Shown in pieces: positions 1 to 19,173 of a stretch of 64,000 nucleotides of DNA. This DNA comes from Cellulomonas sp. APG4 (lineage in GTDB: Bacteria; Actinomycetota; Actinomycetes; Actinomycetales; Cellulomonadaceae). Where the stretch lies: the NCBI RefSeq assembly GCF_009996735.1, contig NZ_JAACYI010000001.1, positions 194,522 through 258,521 on the forward strand, in the 5' to 3' direction. Numbering within the stretch: the first letter of the stretch is position 1; the number at the start of each line of letters is the position of its first letter. The position numbers and the translations under genes were made by a program. Under the pieces are notes generated by a model that saw only the letters and a program-made list of their open reading frames with translations, made no database searches and was not told where the DNA came from.

Positions 1-122
1 AGCTCGACGACCCGGCGGGCCAGGGCATCGAGTCCGTCCGTCCGATCCGGGACGAGATCCGCACCCGTGTGCTCACCCTCCTCGACGAGCTCGGCGTCGA
101 GCCCGCCGCGGCGACCGCCTGA
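1..122 (+). CDS. arsC: Arsenate reductase ArsC (LMW-phosphatase type), C-terminal end only
   Basis: Only the last 39 codons are inside the window, read from base 3 to the TGA at 120-122. The peptide contains DDPAGQGIESVRPIRDEIR and a helical tail. This matches the C-terminus of thioredoxin- or mycothiol-dependent arsenate reductases of the low-molecular-weight phosphatase fold, where a D-P-A-G loop is followed by a final helix. The catalytic Cys loop lies left of the window. One base separates its stop from the ATG of the oxidoreductase at 124, so it is the upstream member of the ars operon. Family assignment rests on this tail plus the arsenic context. Confidence 0.8.
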   Translation, partial: LDDPAGQGIESVRPIRDEIRTRVLTLLDELGVEPAAATA

Positions 123-123
123 C

Positions 124-1536: not shown

Positions 1537-1943
1537 CCACCCCGCCCGAGTCCGTGCTGTTCGTGTGCGTCCACAACTCCGGCAAGTCGCAGATCGCCGC
1601 CGCCATCGCGCGCCACGACTTCCCCGACGTGCGCGTCACCTCCGCCGGCACCGCACCCAGCCCGACGGTGCACCCCGGCTCGGCCGACACCCTGGCCGAG
1701 GTGGGCATCGACATCACCGGCGAGCAGCCCAAGCCGATCACCGACGAGCTGATTACCGACGCGGACCTGGTCGTGGTCCTCGGCACCGAGGCCCAGGTCG
1801 CCACCGCCGACGGCACGCCCGTCGTCCGTTGGGACGTCGACGAGCCCTCCTCACGGGGCATCGAAGGGACCGAGCGCATGCGGCTGGTGCGCGAGGACGT
1901 CCGGCGCCGGGTGCATGAGCTGCTCGGCGCAACAGCCCCGTGA
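1533..1943 (+). CDS. ArsC-like LMW-phosphatase-fold protein with Lys in place of the P-loop Arg
   Basis: 136 residues. The start is GTG, overlapping the previous stop by 4 nt, with GAGGAG 12 nt upstream. The N-terminal loop reads CVHNSGKSQIA (Cys12 to Lys18), where LMW phosphatases and thioredoxin/mycothiol-type ArsC normally have C-x5-R. The rest follows the fold: SAGTAPSPTVHPGSADTLAEVGID in the middle and WDVDEP with the general-acid Asp near residue 107. Cys12 is the only cysteine, so disulfide exchange would need an external thiol such as mycothiol. It is the second arsC-type gene of this operon. The Arg-to-Lys change may weaken or alter anion binding. Fold assignment is firm; arsenate reductase activity is uncertain. 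Confidence 0.85.
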   Translation: MTTPPESVLFVCVHNSGKSQIAAAIARHDFPDVRVTSAGTAPSPTVHPGSADTLAEVGIDITGEQPKPITDELITDADLVVVLGTEAQVATADGTPVVRWDVDEPSSRGIEGTERMRLVREDVRRRVHELLGATAP

Positions 1944-1972
1944 CGACCGTCGGCGGTGAGCTGACGAGAGGG

Positions 1973-2326
1973 TCAGCCGACCGGCGTGGCGCACGCAGGC
2001 CGCAGACGCGCGGCGTCGGGGCCGTCGTGCGCGAAGCCGGCGAGCGCGCGCAGCGCCTGCGTGAACGCGCCCGGAGCGAGGCGGTACCAGGTGTAGCGCC
2101 CCTCGGGCTCGCTCACCACCACGCCCGCCTCGCGGAGCAGCCTCAGGTGGTTGCTGATGGTGGTCTGGCGCGCGCCGGTGATGTCAACCAAGTGGCAGGT
2201 GCACAGCTGCTCGCGGGACAGCGACTCCACGATCTTCAGGCGCAGCGGGTCGGCCAGGAGCGCGAACTGGCTCGCCACCTCCGCGCGCACCGGAACGGTG
2301 GGCGTCGGGACGCTGACGGGACTCAT
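1973..2326 (-). CDS. arsR: ArsR/SmtB-family metalloregulator
   Basis: 117 residues. Winged helix-turn-helix repressor: FALLADPLRLKIVESL is the first helix pair, then QLCTCHLVDITG carries a CxC metal-site pair (residues 41-43 region). GARQTTISNHLRLLREAGVV is the recognition helix and EGRYTWYRL the wing. CxC at the start of the recognition helix is the classic As(III)/Sb(III) site of ArsR; a further Cys near the C-terminus (RLRPAC) could add a ligand. It is transcribed opposite to arsD and faces the tail of the arsC-like gene. The intergenic region 2327-2406 holds nested palindromes that are its likely operator. Expected role: repression of the ars genes, relieved by arsenite. Confidence 0.95.
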   Translation of the reverse strand: MSPVSVPTPTVPVRAEVASQFALLADPLRLKIVESLSREQLCTCHLVDITGARQTTISNHLRLLREAGVVVSEPEGRYTWYRLAPGAFTQALRALAGFAHDGPDAARLRPACATPVG

Positions 2327-2344
2327 GTCCCCACGGTACTACCC

Positions 2345-2384
2345 ATCAGTGTGGTGTGATGTCAGCAAGCGCTGATGAATCAGC
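2345..2384. promoter_or_regulatory. Nested palindromes between arsR and arsD, probable ArsR operator
   Basis: Three overlapping inverted repeats lie in the 80-bp divergent region. They are ATCA-N8-TGAT (2345-2360), TCAGC-AAGC-GCTGA (2362-2375) and GCTGAT-GA-ATCAGC (2371-2384, perfect). ArsR-type repressors bind ATCA...TGAT-like dyads near the promoter. The arsD Shine-Dalgarno GGAGGA follows at about 2396. No unambiguous -35/-10 pair was assigned. Confidence 0.6.
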
Positions 2385-2406
2385 GGACGACTGCGGAGGA
2401 GGACCG

Positions 2407-2793
2407 ATGTCCCGCGTGGAGATCTTCGACCCGGCGATGTGCTGCTCGACCGGCGTGTGCGGGACGGACGTCGACCCGACGCTGTCGCGGTTCGCGGCCG
2501 ACGTCGCGTGGCTCGCCGACCGGGGCGTGCAGGTGGACCGCGCCACGCTCTCCCAGGAGCCGGCGAAGTTCATCGCGAGCGACGCCGTGCGCCAGGCGCT
2601 CGAGGCGGACGGCACGTCCGCGCTGCCCATGGTGCTCGTCGACGGCGCGGTGAAGGCGAAGGGGCACTACCCCAGCCGGACCGAGCTGGCGACGTGGGCC
2701 GACGTGCCGCGCCCGGCGCTCCCGCTCAGCGCCGCGGTCCAGGCCGCGACCGCGAGCACGCAGTCCTGCTGCGGCGGATCCGGAAGCTGCTGA
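2407..2793 (+). CDS. arsD: Arsenite metallochaperone ArsD
   Basis: 128 residues when started at ATG 2407, which has GGAGGA just upstream. An earlier in-frame ATG (2356) lies inside the operator palindromes and adds unrelated sequence. Cys12, Cys13 and Cys18 (FDPAMCCSTGVCG) fall exactly at the positions of the three cysteines that bind As(III) and hand it to ArsA. The thioredoxin-like core continues with SQEPAKFIAS and TSALPMVLVDG. The C-terminus adds a second cluster, SCCGGSGSC, as in other long ArsD proteins. It is followed after one base by arsA. Role: delivers arsenite to the ArsA ATPase. Confidence 0.97.
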   Translation: MSRVEIFDPAMCCSTGVCGTDVDPTLSRFAADVAWLADRGVQVDRATLSQEPAKFIASDAVRQALEADGTSALPMVLVDGAVKAKGHYPSRTELATWADVPRPALPLSAAVQAATASTQSCCGGSGSC

Positions 2794-2794
2794 C

Positions 2795-4582
2795 GTGTCC
2801 GCGCCGGCGCTCAGCGGGACCACCTTCCTGCCCGGGGTGCTCAGCTCCCCCACCCCGTTCCTCTTCTTCACGGGCAAGGGCGGGGTCGGCAAGACGTCCT
2901 GCGCAGCGGCGACCGCCGTCGCCCTCGCCGACGCCGGCCGCCGCGTCCTCATCGTCTCGACCGACCCCGCGAGCAACCTCGCCGAGGTGTTCGGCATGCC
3001 CGACCCCGGGACCTCGGGCGCCGTCCCGGTGCCCGGCGTGCCCGGCCTCGACGTGGTCAACATCGACCCGTCCGCCGCCGCCGCGGCGTACCGCGAGCGC
3101 GTCGTCGGGCCCTACCGCTCCCTCCTGCCCGCGGACGCGGTCGCCTCGATCGAGGAGGAGCTCTCCGGGTCCTGCACCGTGGAGGTCGCGGCGTTCAACG
3201 AGTTCGTCACCCTGCTGACCGACCACGAGATCGCCGACACCTACGACCACGTCGTCTTCGACACCGCCCCGACCGGGCACACGCTGCGTCTGCTCGGGCT
3301 GCCCGGCGCGTGGACCGGCTTCCTCGAGACGAACACCGCGGGCGTCACCTGCGTCGGCCCGGTCTCGGCCCTGGGTCACGCCCAGGAGGCCTACGCCGAC
3401 AGCCTCGACGCCCTGCGCGACGGCGACCGAACCACCGTCGTGCTCGTGGCCCGGGCCGAGTCCTCCTCGCTCGCGGAGGCGGGGCGCGCCAGCGCCGAGC
3501 TCGCCGACCTCGGGATGACGGCCCAGCACGTCGTCATCAACGGCGTGCTCGTCGACCCGGCAGCCGACGACGCCGTCGCCGTCGCTCGCCGCGATCGCGA
3601 GACCGCCGCGCTCGGCTCCGCTCCGGCGCTCCTCTCCCAGGCCACGACGATGGACACCGTGCCGCTCTTCGCCCGCGCGCCGATCGGCGTCGACGCGCTG
3701 CGCGCGGCCCTGTCCGGCGAGCCGGCGCCCAGCGCGGACGAAGGCGTCGAGCCGCCCGAGCTGGACACGCTCGGCGACCTCGTCGCGGAGCTCGCGGCCC
3801 GCGAGCCGTGCATCGTCATGACGATGGGTAAGGGTGGCGTCGGCAAGACGACCATCGCCGCTGCCCTCGCCCTCGCCCTAGCCGATCGCGGCCTGCCGGT
3901 CACCCTGACGACCACGGACCCCGCCGCCCACGTCGACGACGTCCTGCCCGACCCGCCGGCCAACCTCGAGGTCACGCGTATCGACCCGGTCGCGGAGACA
4001 GCGGCGTGGACCGAGCACGTGCTGGCCACGGCAGGCGCCGGCATGGGCGCCTCGGCACGCGACCTGCTGACTGAGGACCTGCGCTCCCCGTGCACCGAGG
4101 AGGTCGCCGTCTTCCAGGCGTTCGCGCGCACCGTGGCCGACGCGGCGGACCGCTTCGTCGTCATCGACACCGCACCGACCGGCCACACGCTCCTGCTGCT
4201 GGAGTCCTCGCAGAGCTTCGCCCGCCAGGCCGCTGCGCGCGAGGGCCGCGCCGACGACGCGGCGACGTCGCTCTTCGCGTCGCTCGCCGACCTCGAGCGC
4301 ACCCGCATCGTCCTGGTGGCGCTGCCCGAAGCAACGCCCGTGCACGAGGCGGCCGCACTGCAGAGCGACCTTGCTCGCGCAGGTCTGCGCCCGTGGGTCT
4401 GGGTAGCCAACGCGTCCCTCGCCGCGACGGGCACGACCGACCCCGTCCTGCGCGCCCGCGCGGCTGACGAGACCCGCTGGCTCGAGGAGATCGCTGCGGC
4501 CAGCCCGCGGCGTGCCGCTGTCGTGCCGTGGCTGCCCGACGTCCCTGCCGGGGCCCGAGCGCTGCGCCGCCTGACCAGCTGA
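2795..4582 (+). CDS. arsA: Arsenical pump ATPase ArsA
   Basis: 595 residues, two homologous halves as in classic ArsA. P-loops GKGGVGKT lie at residues 27-34 and 345-352. Each half has the DTAPTGHTL signature (about 156 and 458). The Cys residues of the metalloid site are present as [10 protein letters not shown] in half 1 and [10 protein letters not shown] in half 2. Start is GTG 2795, one base after the arsD stop, which implies translational coupling. The protein is cytoplasmic and powers the ArsB exporter with ATP after receiving As(III) from ArsD. A 70-bp gap to arsB has GGAGG before the arsB start but no obvious terminator, so arsDAB is probably one transcript. Confidence 0.97.
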
Positions 4583-4652
4583 CCCCACCCGCACGACCGT
4601 TCCGGTCCGCGGCACCGCGCCGCGGCTCACCCCCACGCCTGGAGGCCCTTCC

Positions 4653-6122
4653 GTGCTGCTCGCCGTCGTCATCTTCGTGCTCACCCTGACGCTGGTGATC
4701 TGGCAACCTCGCGGGCTCGGCATCGGGTGGAGCGCTTTGGGCGGCGCGGCGCTCGCTCTCGTCACGGGCGTCGTCCAGCTCGGCGACGTCCCGGACGTCT
4801 GGGTGATCGTCTGGAACGCGACGCTGACCTTCGTCGCGGTGATCATCATCTCGCTGGTGCTGGACGAGGCCGGGACCTTCGAGTGGGCAGCACTCCACGT
4901 CGCCCGCTGGGGCCGCGGGAACGGCCGCATGCTCTTCAACCTCATCGTCGTGCTGGGCGCCGCGATCGCCGCCGTCTTCGCCAACGACGGCGCAGCGCTG
5001 ATCCTCACCCCGATCGTCTACCAGATGCTCCTGGCCCTGCGGTTCGACCCCAAGGCCGCGTTCGCGTTCGTCATGGCCACCGGATTCGTCGCGGACACCA
5101 CCAGCCTGCCGCTGGTCGTGTCCAACCTCGTCAACATCGTCTCGGCCGACTTCTTCGGCATCGGCTTCGGCCGCTACGCCCTCGTGATGATCCCCGTGAG
5201 CCTCGCCTCGCTCGCAGCCAGCCTCCTCGTGCTGCGCCTGTTCTTCCGCAAGGCCATCCCCGCCCGGTACCACGTCGCCGACCTCGCCCGACCCGCCGAC
5301 GTCGTGCACGACCACGTGACGTTCCGTGCCGGCTGGGTCGTCCTGAGCCTGCTGCTGGTCGGCTACTTCGTCGCCGACCCGCTCGGCGTGCCCATCGCCG
5401 CCGTCGCCGGCCTCGGCGCGATCGCCATCGTCCTGACCGCCGCACGAAAGCCGGCGTGGGCCTTCACGCGGCTGGACGCCCGCCTGCCGGCAGTCGAAAC
5501 GGTCGGCGCCGTCCCCGCGGTGCACGACCACAGCCGCAGCGGGGTCGTGCACGACGACATCCACAACCACGCGCTGGGCACCGCGGTCCTCGACGAGGAC
5601 AGCACCCCGCCGCGACCGACCTCCGGCGGCCGGATCCCCATCGCACCCGTGCTCCGGTCAGCGCCGTGGCAGGTCGTGCTGTTCAGCCTCGGGATGTACC
5701 TGGTGGTCTACGGCCTGCGGAACCAGGGCCTCACCGACTCCCTCGGCGAGGTCTTCGCCTGGTTCGGCGAGCAGGGCCCCATGGCAGCAGCGGGCGGCAC
5801 CGGCTTCCTCGTCGCCGGCATGTCCTCCGTGATGAACAACATGCCCACCGTGCTCGTCGCCGCCCTCGGCATCGATGCCGCCGGCGCCACCGGCCTCACC
5901 CACGAGCTCATGGTCTACGCCAACGTCATCGGCGCCGACCTCGGCCCGAAGATCACCCCGATCGGCAGCCTCGCCACCCTCCTGTGGCTCCACGTCCTGG
6001 ACCGCAAGGGAATGCACATCGGATGGGGCACCTACTTCAAGATCGGCATCGTCCTGACGATCCCGGTGCTCGCCGTGACGCTCCTCGCCCTCGTCGCGTG
6101 GCTGACCGTCATCGGGGTGTAG
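4653..6122 (+). CDS. arsB: Arsenite efflux transporter ArsB
   Basis: 489 residues, start GTG 4653 with GGAGG upstream. It is a polytopic membrane protein of the ArsB/NhaD (ion transporter) type. Hydrophobic segments run from residue 1 to the end, with conserved [18 protein letters not shown] (near 110) and [11 protein letters not shown] (near 390), the two pseudo-symmetric loops of this fold. It is about 60 residues longer than the roughly 430 usual for ArsB. The excess is a central hydrophilic stretch around residues 285-325 with HDHSRS, VHDD and HNH. It would export As(OH)3 alone by exchange or with ArsA. The His-rich insert is unusual. Confidence 0.95.
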
Positions 6123-6135
6123 ACACCCACCGCGC

Positions 6136-6167
6136 TTGACCTTCGACCCGACTCGAAGGTCTACGGT
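6136..6167 (+). promoter_or_regulatory. MerR-type promoter with perfect operator dyad
   Basis: A -35 TTGACC (6136-6141) and a -10 TACGGT (6162-6167) are separated by 20 bp, the over-long spacer typical of MerR-activated promoters. Inside is a perfect inverted repeat, GACCTTCGA-N6-TCGAAGGTC (6138-6161). The ATG at 6175 is 7 nt after the -10, so the mRNA should be leaderless and the regulator autoregulated. Confidence 0.9.
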
Positions 6168-6174
6168 CGTGGAC

Positions 6175-6945
6175 ATGAGCTACCGGATCGCCGAAGCCGC
6201 GAAGCTGGTCGGGGTGCCGACCACGACGCTGCGGTACTACGAGGACATCGGTCTGGTCGAAGCGCCGGCGCGCGGCAGGAGCGGGTACCGGACCTACGAC
6301 GACGCCGACATCGCCCGGCTGAGGTTCATCAACGCCACCAAGAACCTCGGCATCCCGTTGTCCGACGTCGCCGAGCCGGCACGGGCATACGACGTCGAGG
6401 ACTGCTCGAGCGTCGCGCACCAGGTCGTCGAGATGGTCGCCGAGCGCCTGACCGAGACACAGGCCCGCATCGGCGAGCTGGTCGCCCTCGCCGCGCAGCT
6501 GCAGACGGTCTCCGCCCGGCTGGCCGGAGCGCCGACCGCAGGAGCGTGTGGCGCTGACTGCCCGTGCGCCACTGCGGCTCCGGCCCCCCTGGCCGACCGC
6601 CGAACGTTCGTGCCCCTCACCCGGTCCCCGGCGCTGCAGGACCAGTCGGCCACACCGATAGCGTGCTCGCTCGACGCCGGCGCCGTCACCGACCGGGTCT
6701 CGGAATGGCAGTCGCTCGTCCAGCGGGCATCCTCTCGCGAGCCCATCTCAGGCGGCATGGCCCTGACCTTCGCCGTCTCTGCAGGCCTGGCCGCGGAGAT
6801 CACCCTTCTCGCCGCCGCAGAGCAGGACTGCTGCTCCTTCTTCACCTTCACCGTTCGCCTGACCACCGGCGAGATCCGCCTGGAGGTCCAGGCACCTGCC
6901 GACGCGGCCGACGTGGTCGCCGCGATGTTCGGCACTGCCGCCTGA
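6175..6945 (+). CDS. MerR-family metal-responsive regulator with C-terminal Cys-Cys domain
   Basis: 256 residues. Residues 1-68 are a MerR winged helix (IAEAAKLVGVPTTTLRYYEDIGL, then GYRTY). A long dimerisation helix follows Cys77 (DVEDC). Cys125, Cys129 and Cys131 (CGADCPC) lie after it, matching the layout of thiol metal sites in heavy-metal MerR proteins. Unlike ordinary members of about 130-150 residues, a second domain follows with ACSLDAGAVTDRVSEW and EQDCCSFFTFTV. I recall this domain fused to or beside actinobacterial mercury/metal MerR proteins, but cannot name it. ATG 6175 is chosen because upstream codons lie inside the promoter. It probably controls itself and the small membrane protein downstream. 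The inducer could be Hg, As or another soft metal. Confidence 0.88.
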   Translation: MSYRIAEAAKLVGVPTTTLRYYEDIGLVEAPARGRSGYRTYDDADIARLRFINATKNLGIPLSDVAEPARAYDVEDCSSVAHQVVEMVAERLTETQARIGELVALAAQLQTVSARLAGAPTAGACGADCPCATAAPAPLADRRTFVPLTRSPALQDQSATPIACSLDAGAVTDRVSEWQSLVQRASSREPISGGMALTFAVSAGLAAEITLLAAAEQDCCSFFTFTVRLTTGEIRLEVQAPADAADVVAAMFGTAA

Positions 6946-7016
6946 ACCCACGCAGCTCGCTCCCCAGGCACCCTGCCTTGGGGCGCCATCACGCCTGCCT
7001 ACTTCCGGGAGAACCG

Positions 7017-7328
7017 ATGACCACCCCCACGACGGAGCACCACCAGGACCACACGACCACCGGGAGCACGGTGACCAAGAAGGGCGCGATCGCCGGGATC
7101 GGCGTCGTGCTCGCGTGCGCCATCGCGTGCTCCGTGCCGCTGATCGCGGCGGGCGGTCTGGCCGCTGGCGTCGGAGCGTTCCTGGCCGGCGGTGAGGTCG
7201 TCGGCCTCGGCGTGGTGGCCGTCGTCGGCGCGCTCGTGACCACCGCGATCTGGGTGCGCCGACGGCGCGCCGCCGCTGCTGCCGCGGCAGCAGGGACCTC
7301 CGCGTGCGGCTGCGGCGGCGGCTGCTGA
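7017..7328 (+). CDS. Small two-helix membrane protein, MerF-like candidate metal transporter
   Basis: 103 residues, ATG 7017 with GGGAGA upstream. The N-terminus is polar and His-containing (EHHQDH). Two hydrophobic helices follow (about residues 22-48 and 57-76), then RRRR, an Ala run and a CGCGGGC tail. The first helix carries ACAIACSVP, a Cys/Pro arrangement reminiscent of the membrane cysteines of MerF/MerT mercury importers. The terminal Cys cluster resembles the cytosolic cysteines that pass metal on. It lies 71 bp after the MerR-type regulator and before a rhodanese, suggesting one metal-response unit. Membrane location is clear; transport of a specific metal is inference. Confidence 0.7.
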   Translation: MTTPTTEHHQDHTTTGSTVTKKGAIAGIGVVLACAIACSVPLIAAGGLAAGVGAFLAGGEVVGLGVVAVVGALVTTAIWVRRRRAAAAAAAAGTSACGCGGGC

Positions 7329-7376
7329 GCGGCCCGGCCATGCCGCATTTCCCGGTACCTGACGCTAGGAGAACCC

Positions 7377-7738
7377 ATGCCGACGCCGATCAGCCGCGAC
7401 GAACTCGTCGCCCTGCTAGAGCACGACGAGGTCATCCTCATCGAGGCGTTGCCAGTGGCGCACTACACCGCCGACCACCTACCCGGGGCGTCAACATCCC
7501 CGGTGCCCTGACCGCTGCGTACGCGGCCCGCGTCGCGCCCGACCGCGGCCGCACCGTGGTCGTGTACTGCTCGGGCCCTGCCTGCGGCCGCTCCACGAGC
7601 ACCGCCACCGCGTTCTCGGCTCTGGGCTACACCGACGTCCGCGTGTACACCGGCGGCAAGGCCGACTGGTTCGCCGCCGGCCTGCCTCTTGAGCGTTCCC
7701 AAGCAGCGGGCGGACGACCGGCACACTGGCGCCCATGA
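7377..7738 (+). pseudogene. Rhodanese-domain protein interrupted by a -1 frameshift
   Basis: ATG 7377 (AGGAGA upstream) encodes MPTPISRDELVALLEHDEV and continues as a rhodanese N-terminal half up to HLPGA. It then leaves frame at GGGGCGTCAAC (7485-7495) and stops at 7509-7511. The continuation VNIPGALTAAYAARVAP, with the active-site loop VVYCSGPACGRS and VRVYTGGKADWFAAGL, is in the frame one base earlier and ends at 7736-7738. Restoring one G at 7490 would rejoin the family sequence HLPGAVNIPGAL. It is either a recent single-base deletion or a sequence error. The reading downstream overlaps the ynfA-like start as ATGA. An intact product would be a sulfurtransferase of about 115 residues. Confidence 0.85.
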
Positions 7739-8067
7739 CGACGCTGCGCTCTCTGCTCCTGTTCGCCGTCGCTGCGGTAGCCGAGATCGGCGGCGCCTGG
7801 CTGGTCTGGCAGGGGGTACGCGAGCACCGCGGCGTGCTGTGGATCGGCGCCGGCGTCATCGCGCTCGGCCTCTACGGATTGGTCGCGACGCTGCAGCCCG
7901 ACGCCAACTTCGGCCGCATCCTCGCCGCCTACGGCGGCATCTTCGTGGCCGGCTCGCTCGCCTGGGGCGTTGTGGTGGACAGGTTTCGACCCGACCGGTG
8001 GGACATCACGGGCGCGATCATCTGCCTGTTCGGCGTTGCCGTGATCATGTACGCCCCACGTAGCTGA
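7735..8067 (+). CDS. YnfA/UPF0060-family membrane protein
   Basis: 110 residues, four hydrophobic helices. It shows the family pattern [14 protein letters not shown] near residues 13-26, [10 protein letters not shown] in the middle, [21 protein letters not shown] and a final helix [19 protein letters not shown]. The family belongs to the small-multidrug-resistance-like fold and its substrate is unknown. Its start overlaps the rhodanese stop (ATGA), so it is translationally linked to the frameshifted rhodanese and may be poorly expressed if that shift is real. It recurs near metal-resistance genes in actinobacteria, which fits its place here. Confidence 0.93.
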
Positions 8068-8145
8068 GCTAATCCACGACAACCCGCTCAAGCGGCCGGC
8101 GAACGGGCTCTCGGCCGCGTACGCCTGGTCCCCGCCGGGCCGGCG

Positions 8146-8409
8146 TCACGGGTGATCCGCACCTGTGAGCCGAGCGACGTAGGCGTCGAGCGCCCCTACC
8201 GGAATCTTGTGCAGCCGTCCGACGTGGACCGACGTAATCTCGCCGGTGGCCAGCAGGTCGTACATGAGGGTGCGGCCGATGCCGAGCCGCCGTGCAGCCT
8301 CGACGACGGTCAAGAGCAGCCTGTCGTCGTTCTCGACCACGACGTTGAGGACGCGGTCCTCACGGACGCCGCGGTCGGTGGTGATGTGCACCTGAGCTGT
8401 CGCGGACAT
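8146..8409 (-). CDS. Excisionase-type helix-turn-helix protein
   Basis: 87 residues, start ATG 8409 preceded on the minus strand by CGGAGGTG. Longer upstream reading has no better start signal and reads through low-complexity sequence. The second half is a MerR/Xis-like winged helix: LLLTVVEAARRLGIGRTLMYDLLATGEI, then SVHVGRLHKIPVGALDAYVARL. This is the excisionase DNA-binding pattern. It points away from the unknown gene at 8620, across a region with repeated CGATGACG motifs. Such proteins act as recombination directionality factors or as small regulators of mobile elements. No integrase lies beside it, so regulation of the neighbouring unknown operon is equally plausible. Confidence 0.85.
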   Translation of the reverse strand: MSATAQVHITTDRGVREDRVLNVVVENDDRLLLTVVEAARRLGIGRTLMYDLLATGEITSVHVGRLHKIPVGALDAYVARLTGADHP

Positions 8410-8463
8410 GGCCACCTCCGAGTGGATGTTGGGCACCACTCTCCGGGCATCCACTAGTCGCAC

Positions 8464-8562
8464 CGATGACGGGGCCGAGGTCCCAGGCGTCGCGATCGAT
8501 GACGCCCCGTCCACAGCTCGCGCGTCATCGATGACGTCCACAACCCGGCCTCCGCGTCATCG
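8464..8562. repeat. Cluster of CGATGACG motifs in both orientations
   Basis: In the 210-bp divergent gap, CGATGACG occurs at 8464-8471 and 8497-8504. As two abutting inverted copies it forms the palindrome CGTCATCGATGACG (8523-8536), and the inverse occurs at 8555-8562. Spacings of about 32 bp suggest binding on one helix face. It is a candidate site for the excisionase-like protein or for the gene-8620 product. The rest of the gap holds only a GGAGG for gene 8620. Confidence 0.6.
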
Positions 8563-8619
8563 CCACGTGCATAGGCCCTGAGCAGCGTCGTCTCCGACCG
8601 GCACACGGAGGAGGCAACG

Positions 8620-9489
8620 ATGGACGACCGCCGCACGCGTACCACCGCACTCGCTCGGGGAACGGCGCCGGCTGAGATCCGGCGGGACCGCGACGGCCTC
8701 CTCGGCCACCTCGCCGTCATCGACGTCGAAGGGTGGGACAGCCCTTCCGCGACGGCCCTCCTGACCTACCTGCGCAGCCACGTCGTCCGTCCGCTCGCCG
8801 TGGACGTCGGACTCAGGGGAGCCTGCGCCGCTCACGCCGAGGCGACGGCCTGGGAGGCGGTCTGGCTACAGCTCCTCGAGCCGTCGCTGCGCAGTGCCCA
8901 CTCGCCCTGGGGCGTCCTGTGGCAGACGGCGCGCCGGGCGATGCTCGGTGAGATCCTCGCCGACCGCTGGGGCGTGTCGCCGCGGCGGGCCTGGGAGCTC
9001 GACGCCGCCGAACGGGCCGGCGGCATCCGACGACCGCTGTCCCTCGAGCCGCTCCTCACGAACGGCTGGGAACCCCCTGCCGAGGGCTCGGCTGGGATGC
9101 ACGACGGCCCACTCACCACGGCCGTCCACCTCGCCGCCCAGGCACTCGGCGAGGCTGGATGGCCCGCAGAGCTCGCGGCGCGGATCGTGCAGGAGACAGC
9201 CGAGATGGACGGCCCCGTTGGTGCAGGCACGACCGCCGTCGGCTGGCGCCCGCTGGCCATCCGTCTGGAGCTCCCACCCTGGCAGGCTCGCCGGCTGGTC
9301 CTGGTCCTCCGCGGTTCGGGCGGCACCGCGGGCCTCCTCGCCCGGCTGCTCGCCGACGGCCCGTCCGTCATCGATGACACCGAGACCCGGCGTGCTCTCC
9401 AGGCGACGCGGAGAAGGCGGCTGCGCTCGCCGATGCCGAAGGACGCAAGCGCAGTTCGCCCGGTCACCGAGGTCCGAGTGGCCTCGTGA
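8620..9489 (+). CDS. Unrecognised protein, faint sigma-70-like layout
   Basis: 289 residues, ATG 8620 with GGAGGAGG upstream. No family is recognised with confidence. An N-terminal segment ATAWEAVWLQLLEPSLRSAHSPWGVLWQTARRAMLGE (in pieces, residues 71-110) resembles the Trp-rich helices of sigma region 2. A later segment GWRPLAIRLELPPWQARRLVLVL, then GLLARLLADGPSV, could resemble a region-4-like DNA-binding part. The C-terminus is basic (RRRRLRSP). It is the first of four same-strand genes to 11832 and diverges from the excisionase-like gene. It may be a regulator of this module; this is inference from patterns only. Confidence 0.75.
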   Translation: MDDRRTRTTALARGTAPAEIRRDRDGLLGHLAVIDVEGWDSPSATALLTYLRSHVVRPLAVDVGLRGACAAHAEATAWEAVWLQLLEPSLRSAHSPWGVLWQTARRAMLGEILADRWGVSPRRAWELDAAERAGGIRRPLSLEPLLTNGWEPPAEGSAGMHDGPLTTAVHLAAQALGEAGWPAELAARIVQETAEMDGPVGAGTTAVGWRPLAIRLELPPWQARRLVLVLRGSGGTAGLLARLLADGPSVIDDTETRRALQATRRRRLRSPMPKDASAVRPVTEVRVAS

Positions 9490-9538
9490 CCGCGACGCGC
9501 AGATCGTCGGAGTGCGATGGCTTGCACAGGAGACGGTC

Positions 9539-10003
9539 ATGCACAACGTCGACACGAGGACGAGCACGCGCCTTCGGCAGTGGGCGGCAGGCCTGCTTCC
9601 CCTTGAGGCGGCGGTCGAGCTGCTGCTGCGCGCCTTCGGCGGCCGGTTCGCGGACCCGGCGCTCCCATGGGTTCGGGTGGACGGCGATGTCACCTGGCTG
9701 GACCCCGACGCCCTGCGCGAGCACGCCGCCGTCCTGTCGGGCGGTGAACGCCGCCTGCTGTTCGTGGTGGCGTCGCTGCTCGACGAGCGCCCACTCGGCG
9801 TCGTCGACGTCGTCACCGGCCTCGACAGAGAGAACCTCCACCTGGTCCTGGCGGCCTTCGCCCACGCCGGCGGGTCGCACACCGCGACCGTGCTCGAGCG
9901 CGTCGATGGCACGGTGCGCTTCTCCACCCCCGGTGCCCTTGTCCCCTGGTCTCACAGCCCGGCCGGGGGACGGTCATCTTCGGCGCCCGCCGTGCACACC
10001 TGA
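9539..10003 (+). CDS. Unrecognised protein of the 8.6-11.8 kb module
   Basis: 154 residues, ATG 9539 with AGGAGA upstream, 49 bp after the previous gene. Visible elements are a helical N-terminus (PLEAAVELLLRAFGG), WVRVDGDVTWLDPDALREH, then LSGGERRLLFVVASLLDE and a predicted mixed alpha/beta stretch ending in STPGALVPW. The SGGERRLL string recalls ABC-type signature sequences, but no Walker motifs accompany it, so this is probably coincidence. Codon use and GC match real genes. I recall similar lone proteins in actinomycete integrative elements, without a known function. Confidence 0.72.
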   Translation: MHNVDTRTSTRLRQWAAGLLPLEAAVELLLRAFGGRFADPALPWVRVDGDVTWLDPDALREHAAVLSGGERRLLFVVASLLDERPLGVVDVVTGLDRENLHLVLAAFAHAGGSHTATVLERVDGTVRFSTPGALVPWSHSPAGGRSSSAPAVHT

Positions 10004-10048
10004 GAGCGAAGGCGGCAGGACGACGTCGCCCGCGACGAGGAGGACCCG

Positions 10049-10471
10049 ATGACGACGACGTGGGGCGACCCCGCCGAGGTCCTGCTGCGCGACGCCGACA
10101 CCGGGTGGTCGGGCATCTGGGCGCTCACGCACACCGCGGCGATGGGGGCCTTGAACCTGGCCATGACCGTGCCGCTCGGCGTCGGGGTCTCGGTCTCCTA
10201 CGCCGCCATGGACTTCCGTGAGGCCCAGGACGAGCTCGAGTGGGCTCGCCCCGATGTCCGAACCACCGCCACCCCGGTGCGGCTCGGCACCGTCCGCCCC
10301 GAGGATGCCAACGAAGCCCGGGCGATCCTCGATCGCCTCGCCGCGGCAGCCCTCGACCGCGCAGCCGCCCTGGCGGAAGTCGAGACCGACCTCCTCTCGC
10401 AGGCAGCGCTCTCCCGCGTGATGGCGCGGCTGATCACCGGGCGGGCCAAGGTCACCGGACGTTGGTCATGA
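10049..10471 (+). CDS. Unrecognised protein of the 8.6-11.8 kb module
   Basis: 140 residues, ATG 10049 with GAGGAGGA upstream. It begins MTTTWGDPAEVLLRDADTGW, contains a moderately hydrophobic stretch ALTHTAAMGALNLAMTVPLGVGV (residues 24-47) that could be one membrane segment or a buried helix, and ends in Ala-rich helices (LDRLAAAALDRAAALAEVE). No catalytic motif is seen. Its stop overlaps the start of the next gene (ATGA), so the two are translationally coupled and probably act together. Confidence 0.72.
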   Translation: MTTTWGDPAEVLLRDADTGWSGIWALTHTAAMGALNLAMTVPLGVGVSVSYAAMDFREAQDELEWARPDVRTTATPVRLGTVRPEDANEARAILDRLAAAALDRAAALAEVETDLLSQAALSRVMARLITGRAKVTGRWS

Positions 10472-11832
10472 CCACCTACGCCGACCTCCTGGCCCAGACG
10501 TCGGCACACGTGCGCGACGCCGCCACCGCCCTCCGTGCGGACCGCTTCTGGACCCCGCGGGAGGCCCTCGATGCGATCGGCGACTACCACGGACTCCTCG
10601 ACGCCGTCGCTTCCCACACCCGACGCCTGCTGTGGCCGGCGCAACTCGGACGGATAGGCCTGGCCCGCCGCCGCGACGGCATACCACCGGTCGAGCGAGC
10701 CGCTATCAAGCTGGCCGCCGGTATCGAGGCCCTCACCGGCGAGGCGAGGCCTCACCCGTCGCAGATCGGCGGGGCAGGAACACCGTGGGCGCGCGCTTCG
10801 CTGTCGCTGCGCGCGGCCGCCGACCTCGTCGCGACGCACTACACAGGCGAAGGACGACCTCGAACACCAGACGCCGCCCACACCACGACGGCGACCTTCG
10901 ACGCCGGTCTCGCCGACCTCGGCTATCTTGCCCAGGCCGTTCTCGCTCACGAGATCCCCTTGGCTCTTCGCGCGATCCAAGCCGGCGTGCCTCGCGGCGT
11001 CGTCGCGCGACAGCTGCCCGGGCTTGAGCACCTCGCCGACGTCGCCCGCGAGCTCATGGCCGAGATGCCTCAACGACGCGAGGCTCCACTCGACGCTCTC
11101 GGTCAGGTCCGGACGCAGCCCCGCACGGACGACCCTGCGACCGAGTTGACGGACCGGATGGTCCGGCTCCGGCAGGCCACCTGGGAGCTCATGGGCGACC
11201 AGTCCGACGCGCTGGCCTCATTGCGGACGATGGCCGGCCTCGGCATCGCCATCCATGCCTACGCCGCCGCCTTCCACGGGGCGGACCTCTCCGCACCCGA
11301 CCCAGTGGCAGCAGATCGGGGCGTCGGCGCACTCGTCCGGCACGCGCGTGCGTGGCAGCGCCTCCACCACGCCCTCTCAGATTTCGCGATCCTCGCCCCG
11401 CCCATGACCAGCATTCGTGATGACGCCACGGCGGCTGTCCGCCTGCTGCAGGAGCTCGCTCCGATGCAACACCCACCGACACCCGCGCCGTTCGCCCCGA
11501 CCGAGCGGCACGTCGCCGCCGTTCTCAACGGGGCCGTACAGGTCATTGCCGATATCGCCGTCCACGAGGGAACGACGTTCGATCGGCTCGCACGGACCGG
11601 CCTCCTGTTCATGCCGGCTCGGTCGTTGCCTCGCGATCTGGTGAGCGAACGGCCCGACCTGGCCACAGCGCACCTGGAACGCCGCATCGTCCACGCCCCC
11701 GAGACCGTCACCGGGATCACCGCTCGGCTGTACGCCGAAGTCGCTGCTCACCCGATCGGCGTCTCGACCGCAGCCCCGGCCCGCCGCTCTGCCACCGCTT
11801 CGACAGAGGCACGCGCGATCTCAATGGCGTAG
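10468..11832 (+). CDS. Unrecognised large helical protein of the 8.6-11.8 kb module
   Basis: 454 residues, ATG 10468 overlapping the previous stop. The sequence is almost entirely helical by composition, with Ala/Arg/Leu-rich segments, no signal peptide, no clear transmembrane segment and no nucleotide-binding motif. Repeated amphipathic patterns such as RDAATALRADRFWTPREALDAI and LTDRMVRLRQATWELMGD suggest a helical bundle. It is the last gene of the four-gene set; the strand then switches to the aldo/keto reductases. Function unknown. Coupling to the 140-residue protein suggests a two-protein complex. Confidence 0.75.
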   Translation: MTTYADLLAQTSAHVRDAATALRADRFWTPREALDAIGDYHGLLDAVASHTRRLLWPAQLGRIGLARRRDGIPPVERAAIKLAAGIEALTGEARPHPSQIGGAGTPWARASLSLRAAADLVATHYTGEGRPRTPDAAHTTTATFDAGLADLGYLAQAVLAHEIPLALRAIQAGVPRGVVARQLPGLEHLADVARELMAEMPQRREAPLDALGQVRTQPRTDDPATELTDRMVRLRQATWELMGDQSDALASLRTMAGLGIAIHAYAAAFHGADLSAPDPVAADRGVGALVRHARAWQRLHHALSDFAILAPPMTSIRDDATAAVRLLQELAPMQHPPTPAPFAPTERHVAAVLNGAVQVIADIAVHEGTTFDRLARTGLLFMPARSLPRDLVSERPDLATAHLERRIVHAPETVTGITARLYAEVAAHPIGVSTAAPARRSATASTEARAISMA

Positions 11833-11868
11833 GCAACGCGGTCCTGAACGCACGGACATAGCCGATGA

Positions 11869-13723
<1,855 letters not shown>

Positions 13724-13815
13724 GGGCGGTGTCCTTCGTGGGCTCGTGAGGCTGTCGGGTGGTGTGCTCCCACCAGATCACCTAGGACCACCGCGAGGAA
13801 CGTCCTGGCTATGGG

Positions 13816-13859
13816 TGCACTGGCAGTGCATGGCTAGCCGGCACGCGCGCTCGTACCGT
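13816..13859 (+). promoter_or_regulatory. Palindrome and promoter in front of the MmyB-type regulator
   Basis: A perfect 15-bp palindrome TGCACTG-G-CAGTGCA (13816-13830) sits directly upstream of the expected -35 position. A -10 box TACCGT (13854-13859) follows, with the ATG 7 nt further at 13867. The dyad lies between two divergent transcripts and is the best candidate operator of the regulator. The minus-strand promoter is less clear (TAGGTG near 13785). Confidence 0.6.
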
Positions 13860-13866
13860 CGAGGGC

Positions 13867-14751
13867 ATGGACCAACGTGATGAGGTGCGCGACTTCCTCA
13901 GCTCCCGTCGCGCCCGGCTGAACCCGACCGACGTCGGCCTGCCCGCCGGCACCGGGCGACGGCGCGTTGCGGGCCTGCGCCGTGACGAGGTCGCCGTCCT
14001 GGCAGGTGTCTCCTCCGAGTACTACGCCCGCCTGGAGCGGGGAAACCTCGCCGGCGCCTCCGACGCCGTCCTGGACGCGATCGCTGCCGCGCTGCGACTG
14101 GATGAGGCCGAGCTGCTGCACCTGCGCAACCTTGCCCACGCCGCCAACCAGCCCGCGCGTCGGCGCCGCACCCCGACGCCGCGCAACCAGGTCCAGCCCT
14201 CGCTGCAGCGGGTCCTGGACGCGATGGCCACCGTCCCGGCCTACGTCCGCGACTCCCGCATGGACGTCGTCGCGGACAACGCGATGGCCCGTGAACTGCT
14301 CAGCCCCGTCTACCGCTTCGCACAGCACACCGGCACCCCACCGAACAGCGCGCGGTACGCCTTCCTCGACTCCTCGGCCCGCGACTACTACCCCGACTGG
14401 GAGCAGGTCACCCACGACTGCGTCGCCGCTCTGCACGGCGCCGCCGGCCACAACCCCTACGACAAGCCGCTCTCCGACCTCGTCGGCGAGCTGTCCACCC
14501 GCTCGGAGACCTTCCGCACCCTGTGGGCCACCCACGACGTCCGTCTGCACCGGACCGGCATCAAGCGACTGCGCCACCCTGAGGTCGGCGTCCTCGCGCT
14601 CGAGTACGACGTCATGGACCTCACGCAGCAGCCCGGGCTCGTCTTCATCGCCTACAGCTCCGCCCCCGGCACACCCGCCGCCGACGGACTGGCCCTCCTC
14701 GCGTCCCTGGCCGCGAGCCGCACCGACGCGCTGACCGCGCCGGACGCGTGA
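13867..14751 (+). CDS. XRE-family regulator with MmyB-like ligand-binding domain
   Basis: 294 residues. The N-terminal helix-turn-helix contains GLRRDEVAVLAGVSSEYYARLERGN (residues 37-60), and LRLDEAELLHLRNLA closes the DNA-binding part. From about residue 105 the MmyB-like PAS-type domain follows (VLDAMATVPAYVRDSRMDVVADNAMARELLSPVY), ending with HPEVGVLALEYDVM and LVFIAYSSAPGTPAADGLALL. This architecture is common in actinobacteria, where the regulator controls an adjacent oxidoreductase. Here it diverges from two aldo/keto reductases and overlaps the flavodoxin start (GTGA), so both transcripts are likely targets. Confidence 0.95.
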   Translation: MDQRDEVRDFLSSRRARLNPTDVGLPAGTGRRRVAGLRRDEVAVLAGVSSEYYARLERGNLAGASDAVLDAIAAALRLDEAELLHLRNLAHAANQPARRRRTPTPRNQVQPSLQRVLDAMATVPAYVRDSRMDVVADNAMARELLSPVYRFAQHTGTPPNSARYAFLDSSARDYYPDWEQVTHDCVAALHGAAGHNPYDKPLSDLVGELSTRSETFRTLWATHDVRLHRTGIKRLRHPEVGVLALEYDVMDLTQQPGLVFIAYSSAPGTPAADGLALLASLAASRTDALTAPDA

Positions 14752-15437
14752 CACCGCAGATCACCCGGCGAACCTTCCTGCGCGCGGTCCTCGCCGGCAG
14801 CGGCGGGGCAACCCTGCTCGCCATGGCCGGCTGCGCCGCCCCCGACACCGCACAGGGCCCCACCCAGAGCCAGGAGCCCACGTCGATGCCGCCGACAGCC
14901 TCGCCCTCACCGGGAACCAGCACGCTGCTCGTGTACTTCTCCCGGCCCGGGGAGAACTACTGGTACGGCGAACGGCGGACCCTCGAGGTGGGCAACACCG
15001 AGGTCCTGGCGGCCATGATCGCTGACCGCGTCGAGCTCGACACCTACCGGATCGAGGCAGCCGAGCCCTACCCGGCCGACTACGAGGAGACCGTCGCGCG
15101 CAACGTCCGCGAGCAGGACCAGGACGCCAGGCCCGCAATCGCCTCACCCCTTCCCGACCTCACCGGGTACGACACGGTGATCCTCGCCAGTCCGATCTGG
15201 AACGTGCGGCCCCCGATGATCATGTCCACCTTCGTCGAGTCCGTCTCCTTCGAAGGCAAGCGCGTGCTGCCCGTCACGACTCACGCGATGAGCGGTCTCG
15301 GGCGCTCCGTCGCCGTGTACACCGAGCTCGCCGCAGGCGCCACGATCGGCGCCGGCCTCGCCATCCAGGGCGAGGAAGTCACCGATGCCGGCCCGGACGT
15401 CGAGCGGTGGCTGCGCGAGGTCGCGCTGGTGGCGTGA
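14748..15437 (+). CDS. Tat-exported lipoprotein flavodoxin
   Basis: 229 residues, GTG start overlapping the regulator stop. The signal region has a twin-arginine motif RRTFLRA (residues 7-13) and a lipobox LAMAGC with Cys29, so the protein should fold with cofactor in the cytoplasm and be anchored outside. After a Pro/Ser/Thr linker comes a flavodoxin fold: LLVYFSRPGENYWYG (FMN phosphate loop), NTEVLAAMIADRV, YDTVILASPIWNVRPP and LPVTTHAMSGLGRS. It would serve as an extracytoplasmic FMN electron carrier or quinone/aldehyde-linked reductase partner. Its placement with the two aldo/keto reductases and their regulator supports a redox role. Confidence 0.92.
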   Translation: MTPQITRRTFLRAVLAGSGGATLLAMAGCAAPDTAQGPTQSQEPTSMPPTASPSPGTSTLLVYFSRPGENYWYGERRTLEVGNTEVLAAMIADRVELDTYRIEAAEPYPADYEETVARNVREQDQDARPAIASPLPDLTGYDTVILASPIWNVRPPMIMSTFVESVSFEGKRVLPVTTHAMSGLGRSVAVYTELAAGATIGAGLAIQGEEVTDAGPDVERWLREVALVA

Positions 15438-15672
15438 GCTGATCGCCCGGTCATGCCGCTGCACGCGCGTGCGGACCCGGCGTGTTGAAGATCGCGGGAC
15501 GGCAACGGACTTCCGCGCTGCTTTGCCCGCTAACGAAGCCGTGGCGTGGGCCTCGGGGGCATCGCGCGGGGGGTCCAGAGTCGGCGAGCAAGGACTTGAG
15601 TCCCGCTGCGGGCGCACACGTCCGCGAGTATCCGGGGGCGTCCGCCGCTGACCAAGTGCTTACCAGAACGCC
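15438..15672. other. Non-coding stretch at the island edge
   Basis: I see no gene here on either strand. Possible frames have no start signal or family resemblance, and no integrase remnant is readable. It separates the flavodoxin gene from the hairpin behind the initiator tRNA and is the likely scar or edge of the left-hand island. Confidence 0.5.
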
Positions 15673-15708
15673 AGAGGCCTTCTCGATCCTGAGATCGAGA
15701 AGGCCTCT
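15673..15708 (-). terminator. Perfect hairpin behind the initiator tRNA gene
   Basis: A 16-bp perfect stem (15673-15688 with 15693-15708) closes a 4-nt loop CTGA, 19 bp beyond the tRNA 3' end on the minus strand. There is no T-run after it, as is usual in high-GC actinobacteria. It probably terminates tRNA transcription, though the symmetry would also permit terminating traffic from the island. Confidence 0.7.
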
Positions 15709-15726
15709 GACGTGCCACTTCACAAG

Positions 15727-15800
15727 TAGCGGGGGCAGGATTTGAACCTGCGACCTCTGGGTTATGAGCCCAGCGAGCTACCGAGCTGCTCCACCCCGCG
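15727..15800 (-). tRNA. Initiator tRNA-Met (CAT)
   Basis: 74 nt on the minus strand, 5' CGCGGGG and 3' CCCCGCT plus discriminator A; CCA is not encoded. The anticodon loop is CTCATAA, flanked by the three consecutive G:C pairs GGG/CCC that mark initiator tRNAs. The 1-72 pair is C-T(U), unpaired as in actinobacterial initiators. The T-arm is GCAGG-TTCAAAT-CCTGC. The 3' end faces the ars island on the left, a classic position for integration of mobile elements. Confidence 0.97.
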
Positions 15801-16012: not shown

Positions 16013-19000
16013 TCAGCCGCCCAGCTCGGCCTCGGCTGCGATGGCGTCCTCGATGGCTGCCTCGAGCCTCGCCTGCGCCTCGCCGTACGCCGCGAAGTCG
16101 TTCTCCGCGAGCGCCGCCTGACCGTCCAGGAGCGCGTCACGCGCCTCGGTCAGGGCCGCGTCGAGCCGGGCCTGCGCGTCGCCCGTGGGAGCCGCCGGCG
16201 TGGTCGGCTCCGTCGTGGGCTCGGTGGTCGGCTCGGTCGTGGGTTCGGTGGTGGGCTCCTCGGTCCCCGGGTCCACGGGCTCGCCGTCGACCGGGGCATC
16301 GGGCACGTCCTCGACGTCCTCGCCCGGCTGGACGCCCTCGACCCCCGCATCGCCCTCGAACACCTGGTCCAGGGCCTCGTCGAGGGTCTCGGCGAAGCCG
16401 ATCTCCTCACCGAAGGACACGAGCACGCGCTGGAGCAGCGGGAACTGCGTGCCCGACGACGACTGCACGTAGACCGGCTGCACGTACAGCAGACCGCCGG
16501 CCACGGGCAGGGTCAGCAGGTTGCCGCTGCGCACGGTCGAGTTGCCGAGCTGGAGCACGTTGAGGCTCTGCGACACCTCGGGGTTCGAGCGGAAGTTGTT
16601 CTGCACCTGCCCGGGGCCGGGCACGGTCGTGTTGCGTGGCAGCTCGAGCAGCCTCAGCTGTCCGTAGCCCTCCCGCGGTTGCCCTGCCTGGTCCCCGGGC
16701 TCGGCGTCGACCGCGAGGAACCCGGTGAGCACGTTGCGGTCCGTGTTTCCGCCCGGGATGAACGTCGACGTGAGCGAGAACGTGGGCTCGTCCTGCGTCG
16801 GCATCTGCAGCGTCAGGTAGTACGGCGGCTGCTTGACGTTGCCGTTGTCACCGACCGGGTCGTTCGGGTTGGCCCAGAAGTCCTGACCCGAGTAGAACTC
16901 CGACGCCGTGTCCACGTGGTACGTCGCGAGCAGGTCGCGCTGCACCTTGAACATGTCCTCGGGGTAGCGCAGGTGGCTCATCAGGTCACCGCTGATCTCG
17001 GACATCGGCTCGAGCGACGTCGGGAAGATCCCGCTCCAGGCCTTGAGCACCGGGTCCTCGTCGTCCCACGCGTAGAGGGTGACCTCACCCGAGTACGCGT
17101 CCACGGTCGCCTTGACCGAGTTGCGCAGGTAGTTGACCTCCTGCGGCGGCACGGCCGCGATCGTGTCCGAGCGCAGCGTGAGCGTGTCCTGCGTGACGTC
17201 CTCGAGCGGACGCGACGCCGAGTACGGGTACTGGTCGGACGTGGTGTACCCGTCGACGATCCACACGACCTTCTCGTCGACGACGGCCGGGTAGGCCTTG
17301 GAGTCGAGGGTCAGGTACGGCGCGACCTTGCCGATCCGCACGTGCGGGTCGCGGTCGTAGAGGATCTGCGACTCCGAGGTCACGCGGTCGGAGAACAGGA
17401 TCTGCTCGGAACCGAACTTGAGTGCGTACAGCGTCTTGTTGAGCAGGCTGTCGATCGGCACGCCCGCCGAGACCTCGTCGGTCGGGAAGGTCGTGTTGAC
17501 CTGGCCGCCCGCCGAGTCGTCCGGGTAGTCGAGCTCCCACGGGTCGGTGCCCTCGGGCGCGCCGACGATCGAGTAGGCCGGCAGGCTCTGGCCGAAGTAG
17601 ATGCGCGGCTCGTAGTCGCCGAGCGACCCCTCCGACGGGATCCCGCCCTGGTAGAACGCGGGTCGGCCGTCGGGCTGCGTCGTGTTGCCGTACGCGGCCA
17701 CCACCCCGAAGCCGTGCGTGAACACGGTGTGGTCGTTGACCCAGGTGCGCTGGTCGGCGCCCAGACCCTGGAGGTTGAGCTCGCGTACCGCGATGACGGT
17801 GTCGCGGCTCTCGCCGTCGATGTTGTAGCGGTCCACCGCGAGGGTGTTCGGGAAGTTGTAGTACTGCTTGTTCTGCTGGAGCTGGCGGAACGAAGGGCTC
17901 ACGATCGCCGGGTCGAGCAGGCGGATGCTCGCGGCGGTCTCGGCGTCCTCGCGCAGCCCGCCCTCCTCGGCGACCAGGCGCGCGTTGTACGGCGTGACCT
18001 CGACGTCCTCGAGGTCGAACGCCCTCTTGGTCGCGTCGATGTTGCGCTGGATGTACTCGGCCTCGGCCGTCTGCTCGTTCGGCGCCACCTGGAAGCGCTG
18101 CACGACGGCCGGGTAGATGCCGCCGATCGCGACGGCCGAGAGCACCATGAGCCCGACGCCGATCGCGGGAAGCCGCCACGTGCCGCGCCACGCGGCCACG
18201 AGGAACAGGATCGCGACGAGCACCGCGACGCCCGTGAGGATGGCCTTGGACGGCAGCACCGCGTTGACGTCGGAGAACGACGCGCCCTGGAACCGGTCAC
18301 CCGACTTCATCAGGAGCGAGTACCTGTCGAGCCAGTAGTTGGCCGCGATGAGCAGCATCACGAGCGCGGCGACCACGCCCAGCTGCACGCGTGCGGCACG
18401 CGTGGTGCGCTCGCCCTGCCCGCCGATGCGCAGCCCGCCGTAGAGGTACTGCGTCGCCACGCCCGCGATCCCCGCGATCACGACGACGGCCATGAGGAAG
18501 CTCACGAGGAACCGGATGGCGGGCAGCGTGAAGATGAAGAACGACAGGTCGAGCCCGTACTGCGGGTCGACCTCGCCGAACGGCGTCCGGTTGAAGAACA
18601 GCAGCACGGTCTCCCACTGCGCCGAGGCGGCGGCCCCCGCGAAGAAGCCGAGCACCGCGGGTGCCGCGTACATGACCAGGCGCCGCAGGGGCTCGATCAT
18701 CTCGCGGTACTGGTCGAGCGACGCCTGCTCCGGGGTCGACGGCGCGTAGACGGGCCTCGTCCGGTACCCGATCGACAGGCTCGCGAACACGGCGCCGGCC
18801 ATGACGAGGAACCCGAGCACGAAGAGCAGCCCGCGGGCGAGCCACTCGGTGCGCAGCACCTCGATGAACCCGACCTGCTGGAACCACAGCACCTCGGTCC
18901 AGACGTTCGCGAAGATCATGAGCAGCACGCCCAGGACCACGAGGACGACGACCGTGGGGCCCAGGGCTCCGCGGCGTCGTCGGGCCGGGGGCCGGGGCCC

Positions 19001-19027: not shown

Positions 19028-19173
19028 AGGTTGTCCCTCGTCGGAATCGGCATGCGGTGGTCCGGGTGCCCGCAGGGGTTGCCCGGTCACCGTGGCAACG
19101 CCCGCGCGGGGCCCCAGGTTCCCACACCCGATCGACGCGCGTGCCCGTCGGGGTCACCTGACACGATGGGCGC

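Follow-up and report, generated by a model that had tools for sequence, protein, structure and literature searches.

The five open reading frames

The window analysed here is a 64,000-nt stretch of the Cellulomonas sp. APG4 genome (G000:C11:194522-258521). Between positions 8146 and 11832 it exhibits five open reading frames, and the sequence confirms them at the places given by a first-pass annotation made from the letters alone. The first, xis (8146-8409, minus strand), encodes an 87-aa excisionase-family HTH protein and is the left core gene of the element described below. Its start is placed at the first ATG (8409); the 8541 previously proposed is an upstream GTG. The other four are on the plus strand: g2 (8620-9489), encoding a basic protein of 289 aa (pI 9.9), g3 (9539-10003; 154 aa), g4 (10049-10471; 140 aa) and g5 (10468-11832; 454 aa). 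The last two overlap by ATGA at 10468-10471, as already noticed in the first pass. This 4-bp start/stop overlap is found in 34 of the 37 loci examined (out of 40 with a full-length g5; L054 and L064 exhibit no adjacent g4, and L058 was left out). Homologues exist for all five ORFs, and pairwise dN/dS values, computed between near relatives, range from 0.07 to 0.37. Taken with the g4/g5 overlap, these indicate that the five ORFs are genes and not chance ORFs.

We searched xis, g2, g4 and g5 against Pfam, NCBIfam, PHROGs and PADLOC, and g3 against Pfam, NCBIfam and PADLOC. The xis product was rightly called excisionase-like, with 42.8 bits against TIGR01764 (cut-off 28.8) and 34.5 bits against PF12728 (HTH_17; cut-off 27). 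In these searches no relaxase, ATPase or integrase family scored above cut-off with any of the five, in agreement with the first reading. The description of the remaining four as unassignable holds insofar as g2-g5 exceed no family cut-off in the libraries searched. No named family matches them, and the idea that all four might be known conjugative accessory families is thus not borne out.

An island at a tRNA-Met gene

The five genes lie in an island of 51.6 kb, extending from a tRNA-Met (CAT) gene that serves as integration site (15726-15800, minus strand) to a 44-bp sequence identical to the 3' end of that gene. The right att repeat consists of the last 44 nt of the tRNA gene (15726-15769, minus strand); the extent of the island follows from the exact recurrence of these 44 nt at G000:C11:158694-158737, 36 kb left of the window. 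Beside this left repeat, also 36 kb to the left and beyond the window edge, is an open frame for a 370-aa tyrosine integrase (C11:158888-160000; PF00589, 86.8 bits). The att repeat, the integrase and the tRNA-Met site establish that the genes are part of an integrative element, as had been supposed.

The in-window part of the left cargo (1-8067, left of xis) consists of metal-type genes, whose names come mostly from reading. It comprises arsenic-type genes (1-6122, named by reading of the sequences) and, from family searches, a MerR regulator (6136-6945) and YnfA (7735-8067). Positions 6130-8068 are 95% identical to an Actinotalea solisilvae locus (L115, genome G403), relative to which a rhodanese-like cargo gene (by eye; 7378-7735) exhibits a broken frame. 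The right cargo, from g5 to attR (11833-15725), contains two aldo/keto reductases, an HTH gene and a flavodoxin-like gene; the first reductase (11892-12878) was identified with Pfam and the others by reading. A large membrane-protein gene at 16013-19090, which we take to be UPF0182, is a marker of this tRNA-Met site in several genomes, and it also adjoins a Tad/g4/g5/g2 locus (L194, by eye).

Across the APG4 genome, the single TraG query used (from A. solisilvae, run with no positive control in that genome) found no match. A relaxase was seen only as a distant interrupted copy on another contig (G000:C44:104096-106842); this MobF relaxase (49% identity), broken by a stop or frame change, is a remnant of another element. 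Because the assembly consists of 48 contigs, with another g4-g5 copy close to one contig end, missing genes could sit in gaps.

A fuller element in C. carbonis

A fuller relative of the island is found in C. carbonis, with TrbL/VirB6, TraG/VirD4 and MobF relaxase genes present. Its attL (C5:115032-115075, 43/44 bases) is followed by the integrase (C5:115226-116338), cargo, and then xis and g2, the latter ending at 158677. After g2 comes the transfer region, in which we recognized SAF/CpaB-like, CpaE-like, TadA/VirB11-like ATPase, T2SSF, TrbL, DnaB-N, TraG, SLT and relaxase genes; the Tad names of several small proteins rest on reading or on sub-cut-off matches. The g3-g5 genes (187636-189929) and the tRNA-Met tail (191704-191747) complete the element. 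Genes for a T2SSE/TadA-like ATPase, TrbL, TraG-D_C, SLT and a MobF relaxase thus lie between xis-g2 and g3-g5. The relaxase, which points left, scores 275.8 bits against Pfam TrwC and 236.8 bits against NCBIfam MobF (cut-off 100). The fuller order is attL, integrase, cargo, xis/g2, Tad-like and T4SS genes with TraG/VirD4 and a lysozyme-like gene, relaxase, candidate oriT, g3-g4-g5, cargo, and tRNA-Met (attR). The xis homologue adjoins g2 in one C. carbonis locus (L113) and an integrase gene (by reading) in another (L118).

The APG4 island matches the C. carbonis sequence over 39.5 kb at 97.2% identity, and its attL region, integrase included, is 99.9% identical over 2.8 kb. Identity is 89% in the right part and 97% in the cargo, so that the two elements are mosaics, not direct ancestor and derivative.

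Inside the C. carbonis element, L114:420-9688 exhibits a Tad-like pilus operon (CpaB, CpaE, TadA/VirB11-like, TadB/C, Flp, TadE, LysM; several names by reading). Left of attL, C. carbonis (L118) and genome G464 (L165) have MFS and MarR-like genes (by eye) in common, which suggests an older tandem element at the site. The main text of the C. carbonis genome paper (PMC4652355) contains none of six mobile-element or metal terms.

Gene order across related genomes

A g5 protein search led to five named genomes: C. carbonis, Actinotalea ferrariae, A. solisilvae, C. fimi SB and A. subterranea. In the first four a divergent MobF relaxase of about 1,195 aa lies directly left of g3/g4-g5, and in all five a tRNA-Met or tRNA-Pro gene lies to the right; both tRNAs contain GGTCGCAGGTTCAAATCCTG. 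Among 221 genomes of the family, g2 homologues are present in 37 and g5 in 35, with both in 32 (hand count; about 6 expected at random). Fifteen g2/g5 pairs are 30-41 kb apart on the same contig and strand, and 5 further such pairs are 61-76 kb apart (hand counts). The genes do co-occur alongside conjugation genes, as flanks of the transfer region and not as a block. The notion of one five-gene module consequently fails, since relatives carry xis-g2 and g3-g4-g5 on opposite sides of the transfer region, and the nearness of g2 and g3 in the window (49 bp) is secondary.

Of 43 g5 loci, 27 have the relaxase gene divergently upstream and a further 3 are cut off. In the other 13, the window among them, no relaxase was seen in the fetched stretch, so that g4-g5 is not tied to the relaxase alone. 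G681:C7, G844:C29 and G777:C14 have g2 and g5 around or next to a Tad-like operon, and no relaxase occurs in the fetched 20 kb; another contig of the first genome, G681:C1, carries a relaxase. Loci from other actinobacterial families (L194-L196) also exhibit a Tad-like operon with g2 and g5 and no relaxase in the fetched stretch. Our literature searches found nothing on an ICE with a relaxase in Cellulomonas, nor on an actinobacterial conjugative Tad pilus with a relaxase.

A probable deletion junction between g2 and g3

Identity to the left portion of the C. carbonis element is 98.6% over window positions 1-4580, 92% over 4654-6118 and 95% over 8144-9530; positions 9528-11832 correspond to its right end at 89%. 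The left and right matches overlap only by AGG (9528-9530), common to both parental sequences. These matches, together with a probe search, define the junction. The intervening C. carbonis segment (C5:158719-187624; 28,906 bases, 28.9 kb) is absent from the window. A 301-bp probe spanning the junction finds a full-length match only in the APG4 genome itself, one of 220 family genomes searched at the DNA level (scoring covered the 3 best candidates in each genome, and a diverged copy could be missed); the two probe halves are 28.9 kb apart in C. carbonis. The first gene right of the junction, g3, kept its ribosome-binding-site-like AGGAG. The relaxase and ATPases are missing from the block because the transfer region present in relatives is gone here.

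The gene order, the att repeat and the junction are direct observations, and a relaxase, a coupling protein and the candidate oriT were not found here. We consider it very probable that the five genes are the two ends of a transferable element, brought together by the loss of about 29 kb of DNA-transfer genes. The block would then be the remaining core of a MobF/T4SS integrative and conjugative element. The loss most likely occurred via illegitimate recombination at the 3-bp microhomology, which would have set g2 beside g3. The integrase and xis, both open frames, could still excise the island, which is probably unable to spread by itself. The proteins encoded here would be without their former neighbours, and are probably leftovers.

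Could the short order be the ancestral one, a small int-xis-g2-g3-g4-g5 element into which the transfer region was later inserted between g2 and g3? Such a history would accommodate G681:C7 and G844:C29, where g5 adjoins g2 beside a Tad-like operon, and L073, where g2, xis, g4 and g5 are clustered in about 5 kb and the 19 kb examined contain no relaxase. However, the order in these three loci is another one, since g5 precedes g2 or g2 is reversed, and Tad-like genes are retained in the first two. The separated order is also common (the 20 same-strand pairs above), and the window junction is flush with both parental sequences with 3 bp shared, as expected from a deletion. We therefore regard an ancestral short order as unlikely.

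It is very unlikely that the five genes form a self-contained cargo module with a regulatory, defence or stress role, close to what the first-pass annotation had offered, even though all five frames are open and conserved and varied cargo lies beside g4-g5 in several elements. Among the 220 family genomes probed at the DNA level the g2-g3 junction occurs only here, and by a hand check of the protein match lists a complete g2 and g5 are same-strand neighbours in no other genome: in G566 the two are 2.5 kb apart on opposite strands, and in G404 a g2 fragment follows g5. As noted, g2 and g5 are often some 30 kb apart around transfer genes. A defence role receives no support from PADLOC, with no match up to E 1 for g2, g4 and g5, only a chance-level match of g3 to mad3 (E-value = 0.062), and a weak AbiEi match of xis (E-value = 0.0028) over a 43-residue HTH-like stretch. 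We give hardly any chance to an assembly artefact joining two distant places, since the 3 bp shared at the junction are too little for a usual mis-join and the lost TraG is unmatched in the genome, although this is a draft with two g4-g5 copies.

Comparison with known elements

Under the deletion reading, the island is a decayed ICE, ordinary in kind and well resolved. Seventeen putative ICEs of Actinobacteria have been defined by an integrase, a coupling protein, VirB4/TraC and a MOBF relaxase (PMC3218068, whose main text contains no mention of Cellulomonas). The C. carbonis relative resembles these T4SS-based MobF ICEs, as described there, in its tyrosine integrase, TraG/VirD4, TrbL/VirB6-like protein, MobF relaxase and tRNA-gene site; the window copy has the integrase and att repeats, whereas coupling protein and relaxase were not found. 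Like the CIMEs described in PMC5704250, the island is a decayed ICE that kept both att sites and lost its transfer genes; unlike them, it exhibits open integrase and xis frames, CIMEs having no integration genes. The IMEs of the same article include relaxase-less types with only an oriT. The island is similar: it carries an integrase and an excisionase-type gene of its own, and a conjugation apparatus was not found. It differs in that the candidate oriT motif of its relatives is absent; an unrelated oriT is possible.

An apparent gene module can thus be a deletion scar. The island provides a clean natural example, an ICE with arsenic-type genes that is minus its transfer region and has kept att sites, integrase and excisionase-type gene. 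Its relatives offer a candidate oriT and four conserved families, nameless in the libraries searched, that are testable in the fuller elements.

The g2-g5 families and a candidate oriT

No family was found for g2 up to E 1 in Pfam, NCBIfam, PHROGs and PADLOC, and the members of its alignment match one Pfam family up to E 0.5, in 1 of 19 members. The profile search against PDB gave no credible relative (best, a designed helical protein, E-value = 0.015), a pattern scan of IMG/VR no relative, and tblastn no match among plasmids. Sigma-like helices had been hinted at for this protein, and both Pfam and profile-profile comparisons failed to support them. There is no Pfam sigma model for g2 up to E 1 or for its 19 homologues up to E 0.5. 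Against 18 sigma-like proteins of its own genome the g2 profile reached an hhalign probability of 0.2 over a 16-column HTH-like stretch, compared with 99.7 for a sigma-versus-sigma positive control. A sigma-factor role for g2 is thus without support, although a very distant kinship may exist. In C. carbonis, g2 precedes the Tad-like/T4SS genes; its product is predicted to bind DNA, as a regulator encoded at the head of this region.

For g3 nothing is above cut-off in Pfam (best, DUF6907, 14.1 bits; cut-off 26). Its NCBIfam matches to ABC transporters are far under cut-off (best 13.7 bits versus 630) and probably come from its LSGGE stretch; the PDB profile search gave no credible relative, with ABC-type ATPases at E 0.016 or worse.

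The g4 product scores 17.1 bits against Pfam DinB_2, under the 24.8 cut-off. Its alignment members match 12 Pfam families up to E 0.5, DinB_2 in 4 of 28 (best E-value = 0.0075). The structure model predicts a ferritin-like four-helix bundle without di-iron ligands. Only positions 55 and 62, which both fall in helix B, carry aspartate, glutamate or histidine in 27 of 28 members; the pattern of carboxylate/histidine ligands on the helices expected of a di-iron site is not seen. A PDB profile search and a pattern scan of IMG/VR gave no relative of g4.

No family was found for g5 up to E 1 in the four libraries, and its alignment members match 4 Pfam families up to E 0.5, each in at most 2 of 31. 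The low-confidence structure model (mean pLDDT 47.1) suggests a mostly helical protein and is too poor for a structure search. The PDB profile search found no credible relative (best, a designed helical protein, E-value = 0.005), the IMG/VR pattern scan no relative, and tblastn no match among plasmids.

The motif GCCAGANGNGTC is present in 21/21 intergenic regions between relaxase and g4 (first 420 nt), taken from loci with the g4 start within 1.2 kb of the relaxase, some of them close relatives; it was picked by inspection and then relaxed until all 21 were covered. It occurs 22 times overall in those loci and 0 times in the island. A stricter form is found in 11/21 regions and in none of the shuffled regions, and an intermediate form in 18/21. 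On this sequence evidence we propose GCCAGANGNGTC as a candidate oriT of the relatives.

The g3-g5 proteins would be cytosolic accessory proteins, made divergently from the relaxase and serving transfer or element upkeep. A more specific proposal, which we consider possible but doubtful, is that g2-g5 are new accessory families of actinobacterial ICEs joining a Tad-like pilus operon with a T4SS. There, g4-g5 would be a translationally coupled pair, divergent from the relaxase across the candidate oriT, that helps to assemble the relaxosome or to maintain the element, and g4 would form a ferritin-like (Dps-like) bundle free of metal.

The second g4-g5 copy of the APG4 genome (G000:C22:721-2501, L008) lies near a tRNA-Pro gene. 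A relaxase was not found beside it, the contig beginning 720 bases before the copy; a TIR-like frame precedes g4-g5 and an IS21-like gene pair lies between g5 and the tRNA (both by eye). In L054 (G404:C1:2406263-2425579), some 8.5 kb separate the g4-like and g5 frames, and a transposase-like gene (by eye) directly precedes g5.
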